Origin: Ettlia oleoabundans
Lineage: Eukaryota > Chlorophyta > Chlorophyceae > Chlamydomonadales
Assembly (NCBI GenBank): GCA_019693395.1
Contig: JAAMXP010000133.1
Span: forward strand, 1-43,785
DNA length: 43,785 bases
Direction: 5' to 3'
In this document: piece by piece, positions 6,001-15,120 of the stretch
Layout: each line of letters opens with the position of its first letter
How positions within the stretch are numbered: the stretch's first letter is position 1
Position numbers and translations under genes: made by a program
The notes under the pieces: generated by a model
Told to the model about the DNA's origin: nothing
Database searches by the model: none
The model's input: the letters and a program-made list of their open reading frames with translations, nothing else

Positions 6001-8494
6001 TTGTGCTGGCGCGCCTGTTGCTGGCGTCCACTTGCCTGCTTACTGGTAGCCTGGGTTACTTCTCATGAGCCCTCTGTTTTGGTCACCTGCAATGCATAGT
6101 TGGTTTCAGCCCTGGCAGTCAACTTGGCATCCTGCATGCCTTCTAGGATGCTTAATGCCAGGTGCCTGCCTGCCATTCAATTCCATCTGCCCCGCAGGGG
6201 GGGTGCACCAGTGCTGCTGCTGCTCCTGTACCAATGGTTTGTTTCACTGCCGCACGTCCTCTCACTCCTCTGCAGAGTGAGACCAGCCCTCACTGTCTCT
6301 TGATGTGGAGACCAGCCCATCTCCTTACGGCGGCCTCACCCTGCTGCAGACATGTACCCTGCCTTGCAACCTATGCTCGTTTGCCTGCGATGTGTGCTGC
6401 ACTGCGCTATCCTGAGCCGTGCAACCTGACAATGTTGAGTGTGTTGTCCTGACACTTTGCTTATGAGGTGCTCGCCTCTCAACTCCATAACTTGCAACTG
6501 CTCATCTCCTCTGCTTGCCCATGTGCCTTGTGTGCAGTGTGCGCAATGTCTCAGAATGTGCCGGGTCGTGAGGCGGCACAGACGCAGCTGGTCAAAACCC
6601 TGCTGGCGAAGGGCACCGATGTCACTCTGCGCAGCAAGATGGTTCTCACTGCACTGCACAAGGCGTGCTACTACGCCGCTGGCCCAGGTGTGATAGGAGG
6701 TCGACTTGCATCTATGTGGTATGTGCATGTACAAGTGCATGTACCATCCCGACAGCCATCCATCACCTGCCACCGGTGAGCATATGCAGAGGTGGTGCGG
6801 ATGCTGCTGGAGGCGGGTGCCGACCAACTGGCGCCTGACGGCCCTCCCGACATCTTCCGCAACCCGCTGTCACTCACCTGCAACCAAGGCAACGTCAGGT
6901 GAGGGGGCGCTGTGCTGCCTGTGCTGTCTCCTGTGGTCTGGATCACTGCCTTGTGGGCGTGAAGAAGAGAACAGATGAACCAGTCAAGGTCTAGGCCGGG
7001 GTTCCCAGGTTGCATTGCACCACAATGATCTCCAGCCTGAATCAGAGGGGAGCCCCCATCATGGGTGCCAGTAGTGCTGTTGTGGAGAGTTTTGCCTGGC
7101 AGCTGCATCCCCGGGCCACCTCACCCAGCCCAAGGTGCACTTGCGGGTGCAGCGAGCTTGAGGCCATCCTGGCGGCCAGGCCACGCTTGGCCATGCAGCG
7201 GAGCCGAGCGATTGTGGAGGACATTCATACCAGGAACCCAGTGTGTGGGCCTGTGGTGAGTCGCTGGTGCTGCTCTTCAGGTGCAGTGCCTTTAGCTACA
7301 GCCATAATCTTCCAGGTTCGAGAGCAGTGTTGGGCACAAGCAAGTGGGATACCTGCAGCGTGACTGCCTCATGCGGCACCATCACCGGCAACACCGCATG
7401 CCGCATTGCTGCCGCTGTTGTCATGCCTTACTTACAGCTTGTAGCTCCCGCGATCAGCCAGTGTCCTTGATAATTCTTCTTGGCAGTACGCCTGTGCATG
7501 CCCAGCAGTTAGTGCTGTGCTGTGCATGGCCCCATGCATGTTGCAGGTGGAGCTGCTGCTCTACTCAATCCTCACCTCATCCTGCCTGATGTGTGTGGCG
7601 GGAGGCCGCAGGTGCGGGGAGTGCAGTCTTACGCTGCATGCATGTGGAAAGCCTGCCCTTGTCATACAATACCGTCAGGGTTGTTTTTATGACAGGAAGG
7701 CAGGGCAGTCGCAAATACAAGAGTCTGTTGATGCGTGGGTGAGGTGTTGTTCCTCCCCCTTGTTGGTGCTGCAGGTGTCAGCGCTGCCAGCACAACGACC
7801 AGCCCCACAGGTGTGAGCAGTGCACATGCAACACTGGGAGAGCAGATGGGGGAGGGGGGCCCTGCTTTCAACATAAGGGGAAGCGCCGTCCATGCATCAG
7901 ATTCTGACCACCACCAATAAACACACCCACCATTCTGCCCTCTGCCATGCAACCCACCTTTCCTCCCTGACACCTACCGCCCCCTCCCTGACATGTGCAG
8001 CCCCACCGTGAGCTTAAAGGGGTGCGTGGAGGTGCGGTGCAATCCGGTTTGAGGAGCGGGCCTAAAATCGCGGCCAACTGCAAGACCATCCTGCGCTGCA
8101 CCCTGCCGGAGTCCAAGCCGTACATTTGGGACACTGTGCAGTACTTTATAGAGTCCTCCCTGGCAGCTTCCAACAACTCCAACAGTGCCGGTCAGAACAG
8201 CCCCGGCAACAGGGCGGCGGCGGCGGCACTGGCAGCACTGCAAGTGTTGCGGTTACAGCGGATACTGCCACCCCCAGCAGCAGCTCTACTGCGCCCGACA
8301 GAAGAACAAAGAGGTGCCAGCAGTGCGGCATGGCGGAGGTCAAGCTGCAGAAGTGCAGCGGGTGCAAGTCTTGCTACTACTGCTCCCTGGCATGCCAGCA
8401 GCAGGACTGGCCCACCCACAAGCAGTTATGCCGCCAGGTGCAGCGGCAGCAACAGGGGGAACAGCAGCAAGAGGTGGCCGCTGGGCAGGGCTGA
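3050..8494 (+). CDS. TPR-ankyrin-MYND protein gene with broken reading frame (possible pseudogene)
   Basis: Recognisable exons: up to 3382, 3548-3652, 3933-4012, 4170-4262, about 4823-4908, 5212-5315, 5648-5734, 5898-5943, 6538-6687, 6790-6898, 7153-7255, 7547-7611, 7775-7810, and a last exon ending at the TGA at 8492-8494. Order of parts: TPR region (LSPLCPEAHMVLAL, RPYLR, GRYSEALEKYELLAKLNP); a segment like ST7 and bacterial TPR proteins (APHAVEY, then TPGALEFLRK); ankyrin-like repeats (VLTALHKACYYAAG, EVVRMLLEAGADQLAPDG); and a complete C-terminal MYND zinc finger (CQQCG, CSGC, CYYCSLAC, HKQLC). MYND and TPR/ankyrin modules bind proteins, so a scaffold role is inferred. Faults: one G seems missing near 4206, a TAG is in frame at 5244-5246, and the frame changes again between about 8030 and 8215. 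Two introns use GC donors (3653, 5735). The exact start and some exons (4400-4800, 5943-6537) are unresolved; 3050 is only the first in-frame ATG. Confidence 0.6.
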
Positions 8495-8742: not shown

Positions 8743-11700
8743 TCAGAGGCGTGGCCTGGCCTTGGTTGCTGGCGGCAGCTGCTCCGCTATCTGCACATAC
8801 ACCTTGCCCACCGAGCGCCCACTCTGCAGCCACTCCACCGCATCCGGCACCGCCTCCAGCCCAACAAAGCGCTGGGGATCCATCTGCAGACGTGCATGGG
8901 AATCCAGGAGGGTGTGGGTGGAGTGTTCATAAAGACACAGTGAGATTTGAACAACGGGGCACAATTGACTCAGATATCTGTCGACCTAAAGCAGCTCAGC
9001 TGGTGCGGCATGGGCCAGGGCCCAATATCTGCACCGTGCCCACTCACCTGCACACGCAGCTGCCCAGCTTCCAGCAGGCCTGCCAGCTTCTTGAGGTGGC
9101 GCCGCCATTCGGATGCGTAGTGTAGCAGGAAGAATCCGTGCAGGGTGGCGCTCTTCCACAGCAGCTTCTCAGCCAGACCCGGGTACTGCCGCTTCTGCCA
9201 GCCCTCGGCATACGAGGACATCATGCCGATGATCAGCAGCCTGCCCCTAACCGCCAGAGCGTCCACGCTTGCGTCAAACATCTTGCCGCCCACTGCAGCA
9301 CGGTGACAGCAGCAGCAGCAGCTGCCACATGAGGGCGACACAACCATTCACTGGGGGCCTCACAACCTTTGGGCATGTGTGGTTACCTTGCAGCCGTGTC
9401 ATGCTGGTACCGGCATGCACATGGCGCTGTGCTGTCTGCAGTGCAAGCTGCGGTACGACTGCACCATCCTGACCTGACTCGTACACCAGGTCCAGCCCCT
9501 TGGGGTACTCCCGCTTCAGCACCTCCCTCAGCTCCTCCTCACGGTAATTCACAACACGGTGGCAACCCAGGGACCTGGGGGTGCGGGGAAGGGGGAAGGG
9601 CTGCGGGGGGGGGGGCTCGCACATCACGCCGCAACCCTGGATGTGAGCAGTGTTCTACCAGCAATGCTGCTCTCTCCCTGCATGCCAATTACCCGCGGCT
9701 CACCTGAGCAGCCGCTCCTTGTCGCCGCCGCTGCATGTGGCGATGACATGGCACCCTGCAAGCACCGCCAACTGCACCGCTATCTGACCTGTGCCGCCCG
9801 CCGCCGCTGTGACCAGCACGGTCTGGCCCTGGCGCTGCAGCCAGACGCAACAGGCATGCCATTGTGGGAGGCAAGCAGTTTTCAAGTGCGATGGTACAGG
9901 AGGACTGCCCCTGTGCCTGCATCTCACCAGCCCGCCAGCCTGCTCCAGAGCAATGCTTGCTGTGAGGCCTGAGGTCATCAGTGCCGCCATCTCTGGTGAG
10001 GCCTCGGGCACAGGGAAGACGTGGCGGGAGCTGACGACGGCCCACTCTGCGAGCACATCAAGACAAGCCCAACAGGGTGACACAACGTGAATCGAGTGTG
10101 CCAGCGCATAAGCCACCAATACATGGAGCCCCAGCAGCATGCCATCAGTCCTCCCAGGGCAGGTGCTGTCCGCTCATGAAGCCTGCACAGAGCGCAGCAG
10201 CCAGCCAACCACTCTGGCATGGTCGCCTGCACTGCTCCTTTTCATGCTTTTTGTCTGGCTCACCAGCAAATCCTCCGTAGGTCATTGTGCAGACTGGCTG
10301 CCCCACAGCCACCCCCTGCACATCGGGTGCTGTGGCCGCCACTACGCCCACAGCTTCAAACCCGGCCTCAAAGGGCAGCCGCTGCTCAGCTGCTGCTGTG
10401 CTCCCAAAGTATCTGCAGACACCACTCATACGCCTTCTCAACACCCGGGCAGCTGCCTGGGGTTCTCTTGGGCATTGAAAAGGTGGCTGCAAGGTGCTGC
10501 AACCTGGCAATACAGGTGCAAGCAAGGCAACACATTAAGATCTTCCTGCATGACAGCTTCTTGCAAAGCCCCATGTGACCAGTTCACCTTCCAGCAGAGT
10601 AATTGACGTCCGATGCATTGATCCCCGCGTACAGCCTCCGAATCAGAACCGCCCCGGCTGGCAGCGCCGGCGGCAGCGGCCGGCGCACAATTTGTGTGGC
10701 TGCTCGGAAATCTGTAGACAGACGGTGAACCTCTATCACACGCGTGCCGCTGGCAGGCAGGCCCGAGGTGTGCGCAGCACCAGTGGCGTCAGCGCCGGTG
10801 GCCCACGCTCGCAGCGCCGGGTTAATACGGGCTGCTGCAGCGCTGGCCGGCATCTCCACTGCAGCAGCATGGCACGCAGTGACAGCTCCCAACTCCTGGC
10901 AAAATAGTTTTGGCAACCGAATGCTGGCAAGATGTATGTCAAGTGCCTTCCACAAGATCAGGAGGTATTAGGCACAAGAGCACATCAGAAGCTGGGTGAG
11001 TAAAATGCAGCTGCTTGCCTGACTTGAAGCGCGTCCTCTGCGGCTCCACCCAGTTGCCATCAGCCAGCACTACCAGGCATGTGCCCACCTTGCTGCTGTC
11101 TGCAAGCAAGTACCCAGCAAGCCAACACACATTCGCTCTCGCAATCACTGACAACAAAGCGACACATGAACTCACACAGTTCCTGATGCCTGCACCACCC
11201 TCCGTCACTGCACACCTGTGAGCAGCACCAGGCCTGCCTGGGTGACCTGCATGCAGGTGGATGGCCCATGCAGATCGAACAGCAGAATGCTGATTGGTGC
11301 TGTTAGGCTGCCATGTGGCAGGCAGTACACAGGGCAGCACCGCCCGACCACAACCAGGCTGCCTGCAAGGTGCGGTCCCTGGCGCACCTTGTCCACCGTG
11401 AGCATGCGGCCCCCCGTGTCCTTCATCACTTCTGCAGCCTGGGCGGCGTTGGCCTGCTGCATCCCACGCACCAACGCCGTGTCTGTGAACTGCAAGCAAG
11501 AAGCATGGGAGCTAGGGAGTGGAGCACAAGCACTTAGTCAGGGGTGACGATTGCATTTCACAAGAACCGTTCATAGCTGTTAAGTGATGGCTGGCAAATT
11601 AGGCAGAACATGCCAGCTAGCCACTCGGAAAATCGCCCCAGCAGCCGCTTGTTCTGCGCTTGCCTGTGGGCAGAGGGCGCATATGCGTATGCCCCTCTGA

Positions 11701-12762
11701 ATGAGGCGAGGCGCCAGTGAGCGGGTCAGCTGCACACACCCAGCCTTGGCCGCGGAATACACGGGGCTGCAGGCAGGCTTCACAGCAATAGAAGGATCTT
11801 GTGCTCAGCCTGTTGATGTGTTGAAGATTGAATGCGGGGTATCGCTTGACCAGACAACTGAAAGACACAGGCCAGGTGCAGCCTGCACCAATCAAGCCAA
11901 CCTCAGGGGCATCTCGTAAATCCCTCCAGCAGAAGCGGTGATCATGATGACCCCTCCCCTGCTGCCGCTGTCGCCGTTACTGCTGCTGCCTTTGCTGCCG
12001 TCTGGGTCTCCAGTCAGCATGGCCCGTGTTGCCAGCCCCACTCCCTCGATCACCGCCCGTAGGTCCACATCCAGTGTAGGGTGCCAGGCGCCGTCCTTAG
12101 ACCACAGCATGTCATCTCGCTCACCGATGCCTGATGCAGGGAAGAACGAATCACATTTTGTACGTTATGCATGCGCAAAAAAGCAGCCTGAGGAACGGGG
12201 AACGGGGAACGGGGCATTCAGCTGTCCATGCAAGAAGACTGCCGGAAGAGGGACGGCTGCACCTGAGTTTATACGACTGGCAGCAACTTGGCAACCAATA
12301 AATGTGGAGCAACATCTGATCTTGTGATAAGAAGCTAGTTTGATTAATACGTTAGCTACCTGCATTGAGCAGCGCATAATCCAGCCTGCCAAAGCGCTGC
12401 ATGTGCTGTTGGAAGGCGGCGCGCTGCGACTCTGGATCCGCTACATTGCAGCGCACTGCCAGTGCCATGCCGCCCTGTTGCTTGATCCCCTCTGCAACAT
12501 AATCCGCCCCAGCAGCATCAATGTCTGCCACCTGTAGCACCACAAGCGCATGCGTATGTGAGTAGCTTTTGTTGGCGTTCTGACACTGAGCGGGCGCAGT
12601 GCGGGCCAGGCGGAGCCGCTGGAGCAGCGGTGCAGCGTCCGCGGGTCGGCACCTTACCGTGATTACCACTCCCCGTCGGGACAGCTCCAGGCAAATGTCC
12701 TTGCCAATGCCGGAAGCGCCTCCAGTAACCAGGGCAGCCCGCCCATTTAGTGAAGGCCCCAT
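8743..12762 (-). CDS. Bifunctional oxidoreductase: HPGD-like SDR fused to PTGR3/ZADH2-like MDR
   Basis: Exons (minus): 12762-12658, 12531-12360, 12130-11902, 11766-11664, 11489-11388, 11246-11216, 11099-11019, 10858-10588, 10412-10264, 10046-9928, 9834-9704, 9574-9474, 9292-9048, 8883-8743. They sum to 1980 bases, predicting 659 residues. Residues 1-274 form a short-chain dehydrogenase: TGGASGIG at 13-20, NAG near 91-93, Ser159, Tyr172 and Lys176 (Ser-Tyr spacing 13, as in human 15-hydroxyprostaglandin dehydrogenase). A Gly/Ser/Asp-rich insert lies at 133-150. Residues 275-659 form a medium-chain reductase like prostaglandin reductase 3: INASDVNYSAGR, the NADP site VTAAAGGTGQ (462-471), YPKGLDLVYESVGG, GFFLLHY. 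Expected reactions are NAD-dependent alcohol oxidation to an enone, then NADPH-dependent double-bond reduction; the substrate is unknown. Two GC donors (11663, 11018). The alternative is two overlapping genes: SDR stop near 10939, MDR start at 10955 or 10853. I prefer one gene because no room is left for a 3' end and promoter. Confidence 0.8.
10859..11018 (-). other. GC-AG intron joining the SDR and MDR halves
   Basis: On the minus strand the SDR half ends TTCAAGTCAG and the intron begins GCAAGC at 11018. It ends GCTGCTGCAG at 10859, followed by TGGAGATGCC of the MDR half. Splicing joins phase 1 to phase 1 (G|TG, Val275) and is the only feature separating the two enzyme domains. The donor is identical in style to other GC donors in this window. 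Confidence 0.65.
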
Positions 12763-12942: not shown

Positions 12943-15120
12943 ATGCAGAAGCCCTCACGCAGCCTGTGGATCGGCAACCTGAAGCAAAATGTCGACCATG
13001 CTGACCTTTGGGGCACACTTTGCAGGCGAGTGCACTGCAGTCGGTGGGTCAGGCCTGCTGGGAGCTTGCATGGCGTTCCTTTGGACAACTGTATCCTGTG
13101 TAGGGTTAGCCTGTCCGGCCAAGCCGGTTCCTCGGGCCGCCCTTTTGACCGTTGCAGGTTCGGAGGGACCGCAGAGCACATTATGTGCTGGTCCCGGTGA
13201 CGAGGACGCACGGCAGCAGCATGCGGCGCCAGCTGCAATGCGGCGCACCTTTGGGGGCGGTTGGGTGGCAGAGGATGAGGAGGATGAATGTGATCCACTG
13301 GTGGAGCTCTGGGTGGGCAATCTTTGTGCAGGGGCGACGCGGCTCAGCATTCGCCGCGCGTTCGAGTGGTGAGTTGGTTGCGCAGGCAATCACATGAAGA
13401 CTGCCGCAGGTCCCCCTTACTGTGGTTGTTTGGGCTTAGCAAGCTAGCTATTGCTTTGTTTTCCCACAACCCTTTGCCTCTCCCCGCTTCTCCGCCTTGC
13501 GCTCATAGCTTTGGCGAGGTGGCGAGCGTGCAGCTGCAAGCAGCTCCCGGCGAACATGACCTGCAGTTTGCATTTGTTGAGCTACCCGCCAGCAGCGCTG
13601 AGCTGGCAATCGAGGAGCTGGACGGGCGCATGATCTACGAGCTCTCCGGTGATCAAATGTTGCTGAAAGTCAAGCAGAGCAAGCGCAGCGTTAAGCCCCT
13701 GCTGAAGTGGCAGCAGCAGCAGCAGCAACACAAACAGCAGCATTACAAACAGCAGCAGCGGGCTGAGGGGGCGTGGCAACCGTCGGCATCGGCAGCCTTG
13801 CAGGTAGACTGTGGGGGCGGCGGCAGCACAGCATTACTGCAGGGCACGGTTCGGGAAGTGAAGAAGTTCTTGCTGTGTGATGGCCCGCCCAGCCGCACGC
13901 TGTGGTTGGGGAATGTGGCAGGCACAGCCTCACCAACCAGCCTGCAGGCCTTGTTTGGCAGGCAAGTCAATCGTGTTGGTGGTATGCTTGCTGCCAGGCA
14001 GCATTTGAGGATGCAACCGAAAACTCTTGCATGGATTAACCTGTTAGTGATGGGACCATTGTGTTGGTGTTTGCATGTGAACTCCATTAGGCAACTGCCC
14101 TCTGTTGGGCAGCCACACTGTTTCAACCTTTTCCCTGTGCGCGCCNNNNNNNNNNNNNNNNNNCCCCCAAACACACACCACACCCCACCCCAGGCTCTGC
14201 TGCTGTCTGGTGCAGGTACGGCATCGTGATGCGGGCACGTCTGTTCACTGCGCCAGGACACAATAACCCCTACTTCTTTGGGTTTGTGGACATGAGGAAT
14301 GCAGAAGACGCAGAAACCGCTCAGGAGGAGCTGCAGGCAGGCGATCGGTACAGCTGTGCAGGAGGATTCACCCCCCTCATCCCTGCAAACAGTGCTGCTC
14401 CTTCACTGCTGTCATTGTTGCTGCCTGTCTCCCACGTGCTTTGCTGGCTTTGCATGCATGCCCAGCAATTTGCGTCCGTCATACCGGTGTCTCAGTTGTT
14501 GTCTCTGGCTGCAGGGCGCGGTTCACATTGCCGACTTGTGTGACAGCAAACCCCTCAAGATTCGCTACGCCTGGCCTAAGCACCTGGCACGCCCAGCGTC
14601 AGCTGGCAGCATGGCGGCAATGGCCAGATCAGATGAGTCTTCTGGGCTGAGAGTGCAGCTGCACACCAATGGTGGCAGCCATGCAGCAGTCGTGCAGCAT
14701 CACACTGTGGCGGCAGCAACACAGGAGCAGGCAGCAGCAGCGACAGCAGGCAGCAGCGGCAGCAGCCCAGCAGAAGAAGCTGCTTCTGCCAACCCCGCGC
14801 AACCGCTGTGTGCCTCATGTGGCACTGATTCCTCCTCAGCAGCCCTCAAGCGCTGCAGCGGCTGCCATAGCGTGTTGTACTGCTCCCGGGAGTGCCAGCT
14901 GAGGCATTGGGAGGTGCAGCATGTGCACGACTGTCAGCGGGTGGCGCAGCTGGAGCGCCTGTTCAACAAGCAGCCACAGGGCCCCTCAGCACAGCAAAAC
15001 GTGGTCAGCCTCCTAGCCTCCGCGCTTCAGCAGCCGGGTGGGCGCCAAGCGCAGCTGGTGCAGGCGCTGCTTCAGCAGCAGGCAGGTGTGGCGGCAGGCA
15101 GCAACTCAGTGCCAACCTAA
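12943..15120 (+). CDS. SPEN/FPA-like RRM protein with C-terminal MYND zinc finger
   Basis: Predicted RNA-binding protein. Exons: 12943-13025 (or 13029), an exon ending at 13368, 13509-13961, 14216-14336 and 14515-15120. Three RNP2-like strands are visible: SLWIGNL (start), ELWVGNLCAGATRLSIRRAFE then CFGEVASVQLQ and FAFVEL (second RRM), and TLWLGNV then YGIVMRARLF and YFFGFVDMRNAEDAETAQEE, closing with GAVHIADLCDSKPLKIRYAWP (third RRM). A Gln-rich linker lies at 13710-13765. After a Ser/Ala/Gln-rich stretch comes a MYND finger with CASCG, CSGCHSVLYCSREC and HVHDC, then a Gln-rich tail. The RRM series resembles plant FPA, which has a SPOC domain rather than MYND at its end. The first RRM is poorly resolved: frames at 13158-13230 cannot be joined cleanly to the second RRM. 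GC donors occur at 13962, 14337 and possibly 13026. An N gap lies in the third intron. Confidence 0.75.
14146..14163. other. Assembly gap of 18 N
   Basis: Eighteen undetermined bases lie in the intron 13962-14215 of the RRM/MYND gene. No coding sequence appears lost, because the flanking exons join in phase. Confidence 0.95.

Follow-up and report, generated by a model that had tools for sequence, protein, structure and literature searches.

Contig JAAMXP010000133.1 of the green alga Ettlia oleoabundans, analysed over its full 43,785 nucleotides (the window), carries a minus-strand gene at 12762-8743 that we re-derived from the sequence as 14 exons, with all junctions in phase, encoding 659 residues and a stop (Table 1). 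Pfam placed adh_short at residues 9-215, ADH_N at 342-429, and ADH_zinc_N at 468-600 of this protein, i.e., a short-chain dehydrogenase/reductase (SDR) half followed by a medium-chain dehydrogenase/reductase (MDR) half. The splice borders were set by homology and reading frame; the eleven introns other than introns 4 and 7 are all GT-AG. Retention of an intron would introduce a stop for nine of the 13 introns, and with intron 7 retained the SDR frame stops at 10939, reproducing the stop near 10939 given by the original prediction. The same prediction placed an MDR start at 10955. However, the codon there is TTG, and the frame has its first Met only at 10853, within exon 8.

Table 1. Exons of the SDR-MDR gene and its two GC-AG introns (positions in the window)
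Feature	Coordinates	Strand	Remarks
Exon 1	12658..12762	-	Start Met; SDR, NAD-binding motif TGGASGIG
Exon 2	12360..12531	-	SDR; Asp38 (NAD-type) and LNA of LNAG
Exon 3	11902..12130	-	SDR; catalytic Ser159
Exon 4	11664..11766	-	SDR; catalytic Tyr172 and Lys176
Intron 4	11490..11663	-	GC-AG, donor gcaagc; 9 residues absent here from the C. variabilis gene model
Exon 5	11388..11489	-	SDR C-terminal region
Exon 6	11216..11246	-	31 bases; SDR
Exon 7	11019..11099	-	SDR half ends
Intron 7	10859..11018	-	GC-AG, donor gcaagc; links SDR and MDR halves
Exon 8	10588..10858	-	Linker, then MDR half begins
Exon 9	10264..10412	-	MDR; GroES-like (ADH_N) region
Exon 10	9928..10046	-	MDR
Exon 11	9704..9834	-	MDR; AAAGGTGQ and Lys493 (NADPH-type)
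Exon 12	9474..9574	-	MDR
Exon 13	9048..9292	-	MDR
Exon 14	8743..8883	-	MDR end, stop; C-terminal PRL, predicted peroxisome signal

The joining of the SDR and MDR halves into one protein is confirmed by comparison with related sequences. Of 7993 candidates scored in a protein search, 663 matched at E <= 0.001; the best 120, on which the analysis was carried out, match both halves without exception (120/120). Since the entire Ettlia protein aligns with its fused relatives, the fusion in this alga is not a chance reading. The 659-residue frame linked by intron 7 was predicted correctly, and P0002-P0006, five of the six nearest relatives, have the SDR-MDR joint at the identical residue. The sixth, a Chlorella variabilis gene model, departs from our model exactly at both GC-AG introns. 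The difference (9 residues absent and 11 added) resembles what a gene prediction disallowing GC donors would give. With two such introns in one gene (11663-11490 and 11018-10859), GC donors may be a source of faulty gene models in Chlorella. Furthermore, P0002 (660 residues) lies on a transcript-sized contig of 2256 bases, and other fused sequences bear transcript-type names (P0026 and P0059, MMETSP; P0058, TSA; P0025, TRINITY). Therefore, the fusion is seen outside genomic gene prediction too. No polyA signal of the TGTAA or AATAAA type was found within intron 7, and a single TGTAA lies at 8257, 486 bases beyond the stop; this is weak evidence. That two neighbouring genes have been mistakenly read as one could be argued from the non-standard GC donor of the linking intron and from the lack of cDNA from Ettlia. 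Given the common joint, the transcript-type names, and the presence of the fused protein in both Arabidopsis thaliana and Chlamydomonas reinhardtii, we consider such a misreading extremely improbable.

The organism names visible among the best 120 matches, where many rows are unnamed, are all those of a green alga or land plant. As the names cover the best 120 of 663 matches, fusions outside the green lineage may also exist. The C. variabilis protein is 78% identical over 99% of the Ettlia protein, and a quick tree of the query and 116 of the 120 matches joined the two with a support of 99 (P0013, P0022, P0050, and P0100 were excluded for unusual lengths or models). A second search, with a divergent member as query, yielded 64 further proteins, 60 of which match both halves; the SDR half is unmatched in P0125, P0126, P0127, and P0135, the last being an MDR-only protein of the oomycete Lagenidium giganteum. 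The Pfam order of adh_short then ADH_N/ADH_zinc_N is also present in P0004 and in P0139. We take P0139, recorded as "unnamed protein product [Arabidopsis thaliana]", to be NQR/AT1G49670 ("ARP protein (REF)"). It is 43% identical to the Ettlia protein and shares its SDR-MDR order, but ends with SRL instead of PRL. C. reinhardtii CHLRE_16g677950v5 (P0040) is the same fusion, with an SKL ending and 46% identity. Because the same fusion, with a peroxisome tag, is shared by numerous green algae and land plants, the Ettlia protein is by sequence a member of the known green-lineage SDR-MDR fusion family NQR/AT1G49670. It is not a special trait of one alga but part of a widespread family. A literature search, to which most subscription papers were closed, found no title on the SDR-MDR fusion as such among the papers listed, and we make no claim of priority for the fusion.

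AT1G49670 is equated with NQR by a table row in PMC4517385, and we rely on that row since the locus number is not printed in PMC10288848. The latter report, which gives high expression of NQR in germinating seeds, describes NQR as a peroxisomal, putative quinone reductase without an obvious gymnosperm peroxisomal homologue. A 635-residue fusion ending with SRL, labelled Wollemia nobilis, a gymnosperm (P0058), speaks against the latter statement. AT1G49670 is counted among confirmed peroxisomal proteins (PMC3633942), and a plant SDR inventory describes its group as Viridiplantae-wide, with class and function left blank in the row (PMC3541173). It is also mentioned in PMC9047180, PMC4218711, PMC5217369, and PMC7761559, while nothing on the NQR fusion protein was found in passages of PMC9637915, PMC8133638, and PMC11719350.

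The C-terminal tripeptide of the Ettlia protein, PRL, belongs to the list of tripeptides validated in plants as peroxisomal targeting signals type 1 (PTS1) (PMC3427985). A C-terminal peroxisome signal was absent from the original prediction. Tripeptides from this list end 114 of 121 proteins (query and best 120) and 61 of the 64 further matches; for the strict [SA][KR][LM] ending, the corresponding values are 107/121 and 56/64. Both counts on the 64 include the four proteins whose SDR half is unmatched. As a background, among the 12000 positions that make up the last 100 residues of the 120 matches, 147 match the validated list.

Both active sites appear intact and are conserved across the family, with opposite cofactor types, NAD and NADPH. 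Counting the rows with a letter at the site among the query and all 184 matches of both searches (185 rows), the SDR residues Ser159, Tyr172, and Lys176 are kept in 182/183, 181/182, and 183/183 rows, respectively. Asp38 is D in 174 and E in 2 of 177 rows, and the MDR Lys493 is K in 185/185. The three Gly of TGGASGIG are kept in all 57 rows with letters in a 61-row alignment. That alignment, like the structure work, used 60 matches hand-picked from the 184, and the residue counts were then redone on the full set. The pattern agrees with the proposed NAD-dependent SDR and NADPH-dependent MDR, the roles of these five residues being those we assume from the SDR and MDR families.

Among MDRs, PTGR3 is the closest to the MDR half in profile, single-sequence, and fold comparisons, with a wide margin by profile and by fold, its profile score being 364 bits versus 132.6 for the best quinone oxidoreductase; the earlier label "PTGR3-like" is well founded. 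None of 23 NCBIfam models attains its cut-off on this half, and the PIG3-family quinone oxidoreductase model TIGR02824 reaches 156.5 bits, below the curated 296.8. When the SDR half was compared by profile with solved structures, 15-hydroxyprostaglandin dehydrogenase (15-PGDH, human HPGD) came first, with a lead of 6 bits only and with the catalytic Ser/Tyr/Lys aligned. None of the 25 NCBIfam models listed, of 206, reached its cut-off on the SDR half. The list of the fold comparison was filled by MDR chains, so SDR families were barely covered there. Human HPGD stands alone, unlike the fused SDR half, and so does human PTGR3/ZADH2, without an SDR fusion. ZADH2/PTGR3 is peroxisomal in mammals, the human protein ending with an SKL PTS1, and the mouse enzyme is cited as reducing 15-oxoprostaglandins (PMC8919083).

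The name NQR and notes on oxidative stress would suit a detoxifier, with the MDR half acting as a reductase of quinones or reactive carbonyls and the SDR half as a carbonyl reductase. Considering the profile scores of PTGR3 and the best quinone oxidoreductase, and the NAD-type Asp of the SDR half, we regard such a detoxifier as quite unlikely. In SDRs, a NAD-type Asp is usual in oxidation.

We instead favor, with a probability of roughly one half, a peroxisomal bifunctional NQR/AT1G49670-family protein that would carry out two successive steps on a lipid. The C-terminal PTS1 would bring the single protein into the peroxisome. There, the 15-PGDH-like half with NAD would produce an enone by oxidizing the allylic secondary alcohol of a lipid, such as a hydroxy-polyunsaturated fatty acid or a related oxylipin. 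The conjugated double bond would then be reduced by the PTGR3-like half with NADPH, leaving a saturated, no longer electrophilic ketone that could proceed to β-oxidation; the net conversion would be from allylic alcohol to saturated ketone. We infer the substrate, the direction, and the action of both steps on one molecule. The Chlamydomonas orthologue Cre16.g677950 loads with acyl-CoA oxidases and HADH, on a component interpreted by the authors as nitrogen recovery via lipid degradation (PMC4320484).

Bacterial relatives were sought by scanning GTDB with six aligned MDR halves, and at least 395 stretches were confirmed. The best 80 were kept, 65 with 40-51% and 15 with 29-37% identity. No open reading frame (ORF) at these 80 loci matches both halves, and the PTGR3-like genes stand alone in 80/80. 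Within flanks of up to 4 kb, often shorter, an ORF matching the SDR half (blastp 1e-8) was present at two loci, with 24 and 27% identity. Thus, the bacterial loci lend no operon support to an SDR-MDR partnership. The commonest recurrent neighbour of the stand-alone gene (L024-L072, mostly cyanobacterial) is common to 26 of 65 loci compared. The neighbour listing, together with the ORFs of ten bacterial loci, gave no clue to substrate.

In the predicted model of the relative P0004 (pTM 0.65), the linker is of low confidence, so it is probably flexible, and the halves make no fixed contact. On these grounds, physical channelling has no support in the model beyond the covalent link. A flexible linker, MDR relatives without an SDR partner at 78 of the 80 bacterial loci, and the PTS1 of human PTGR3 alone (PMC8919083) would all suit two separate activities on different substrates, tethered for co-import because the PTGR3-like half already had its PTS1. 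The retention of both active sites together, with opposite cofactor types, fits successive steps without proving them, and we consider simple co-import possible but rather unlikely.

Besides the lack of operon support and of a fixed contact, several further observations weigh against the two-step oxidation and reduction. PRL counts as a non-canonical PTS1 (PMC9328179), and such tripeptides function only in the right context (PMC3427985). Therefore, with PRL listed yet non-canonical, import of the Ettlia protein is likely rather than certain. The lead of 15-PGDH over other SDRs is small, and in the single-sequence comparison it is third among SDRs, behind 7djs and 5x8h; the earlier label "HPGD-like" has narrow support by profile but not by single sequence. 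In the tree of PMC10288848, where the presence of 15-PGDH is uncertain, no non-plant SDR whose function is established clusters with NQR. SDR-only green-plant entries of 291-299 residues also exist (e.g., P0193 and P0197), possibly as partial gene models. A chloroplast stroma study tabulates a tomato homologue as a trans-2-enoyl-CoA reductase (PMC10493611). Finally, the literature consulted holds no substrate or activity measurements for the NQR family.

In the surroundings of the gene, ORFs with a MYND zinc finger flank it on the opposite strand, at 8066-8491 (+; E 5.7e-11) and 14296-15117 (+; E 3.2e-10). The sole run of N in the window (18 N, 14146-14163) falls between the gene and the second of these ORFs (14296). 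Rfam and tRNA scans of the window gave no matches. Elsewhere, on contig C360 of genome G000 (51369-100977), six ADH_zinc_N matches (L001-L004, L006, and L007) lie on one strand within 50 kb. In the one ORF scanned there, ADH_zinc_N families alone matched. From their spacing, we guess at a modular polyketide synthase with enoyl reductase domains.

As this fusion family is widespread and not new, the novelty of the finding is limited. We tentatively suggest that green algae and land plants may keep a peroxisomal, one-protein version of the two-enzyme eicosanoid inactivation of animals, whereby an allylic hydroxyl would be oxidized and the enone then reduced, and hydroxy-fatty acids derived from lipid peroxidation would be made harmless and enter β-oxidation. 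If true, an SDR group listed without function in the plant inventory would acquire one, and the peroxisomes of plants and algae would gain an auxiliary lipid step. Reading AT1G49670 as 15-PGDH-like plus PTGR3-like makes its function directly testable.
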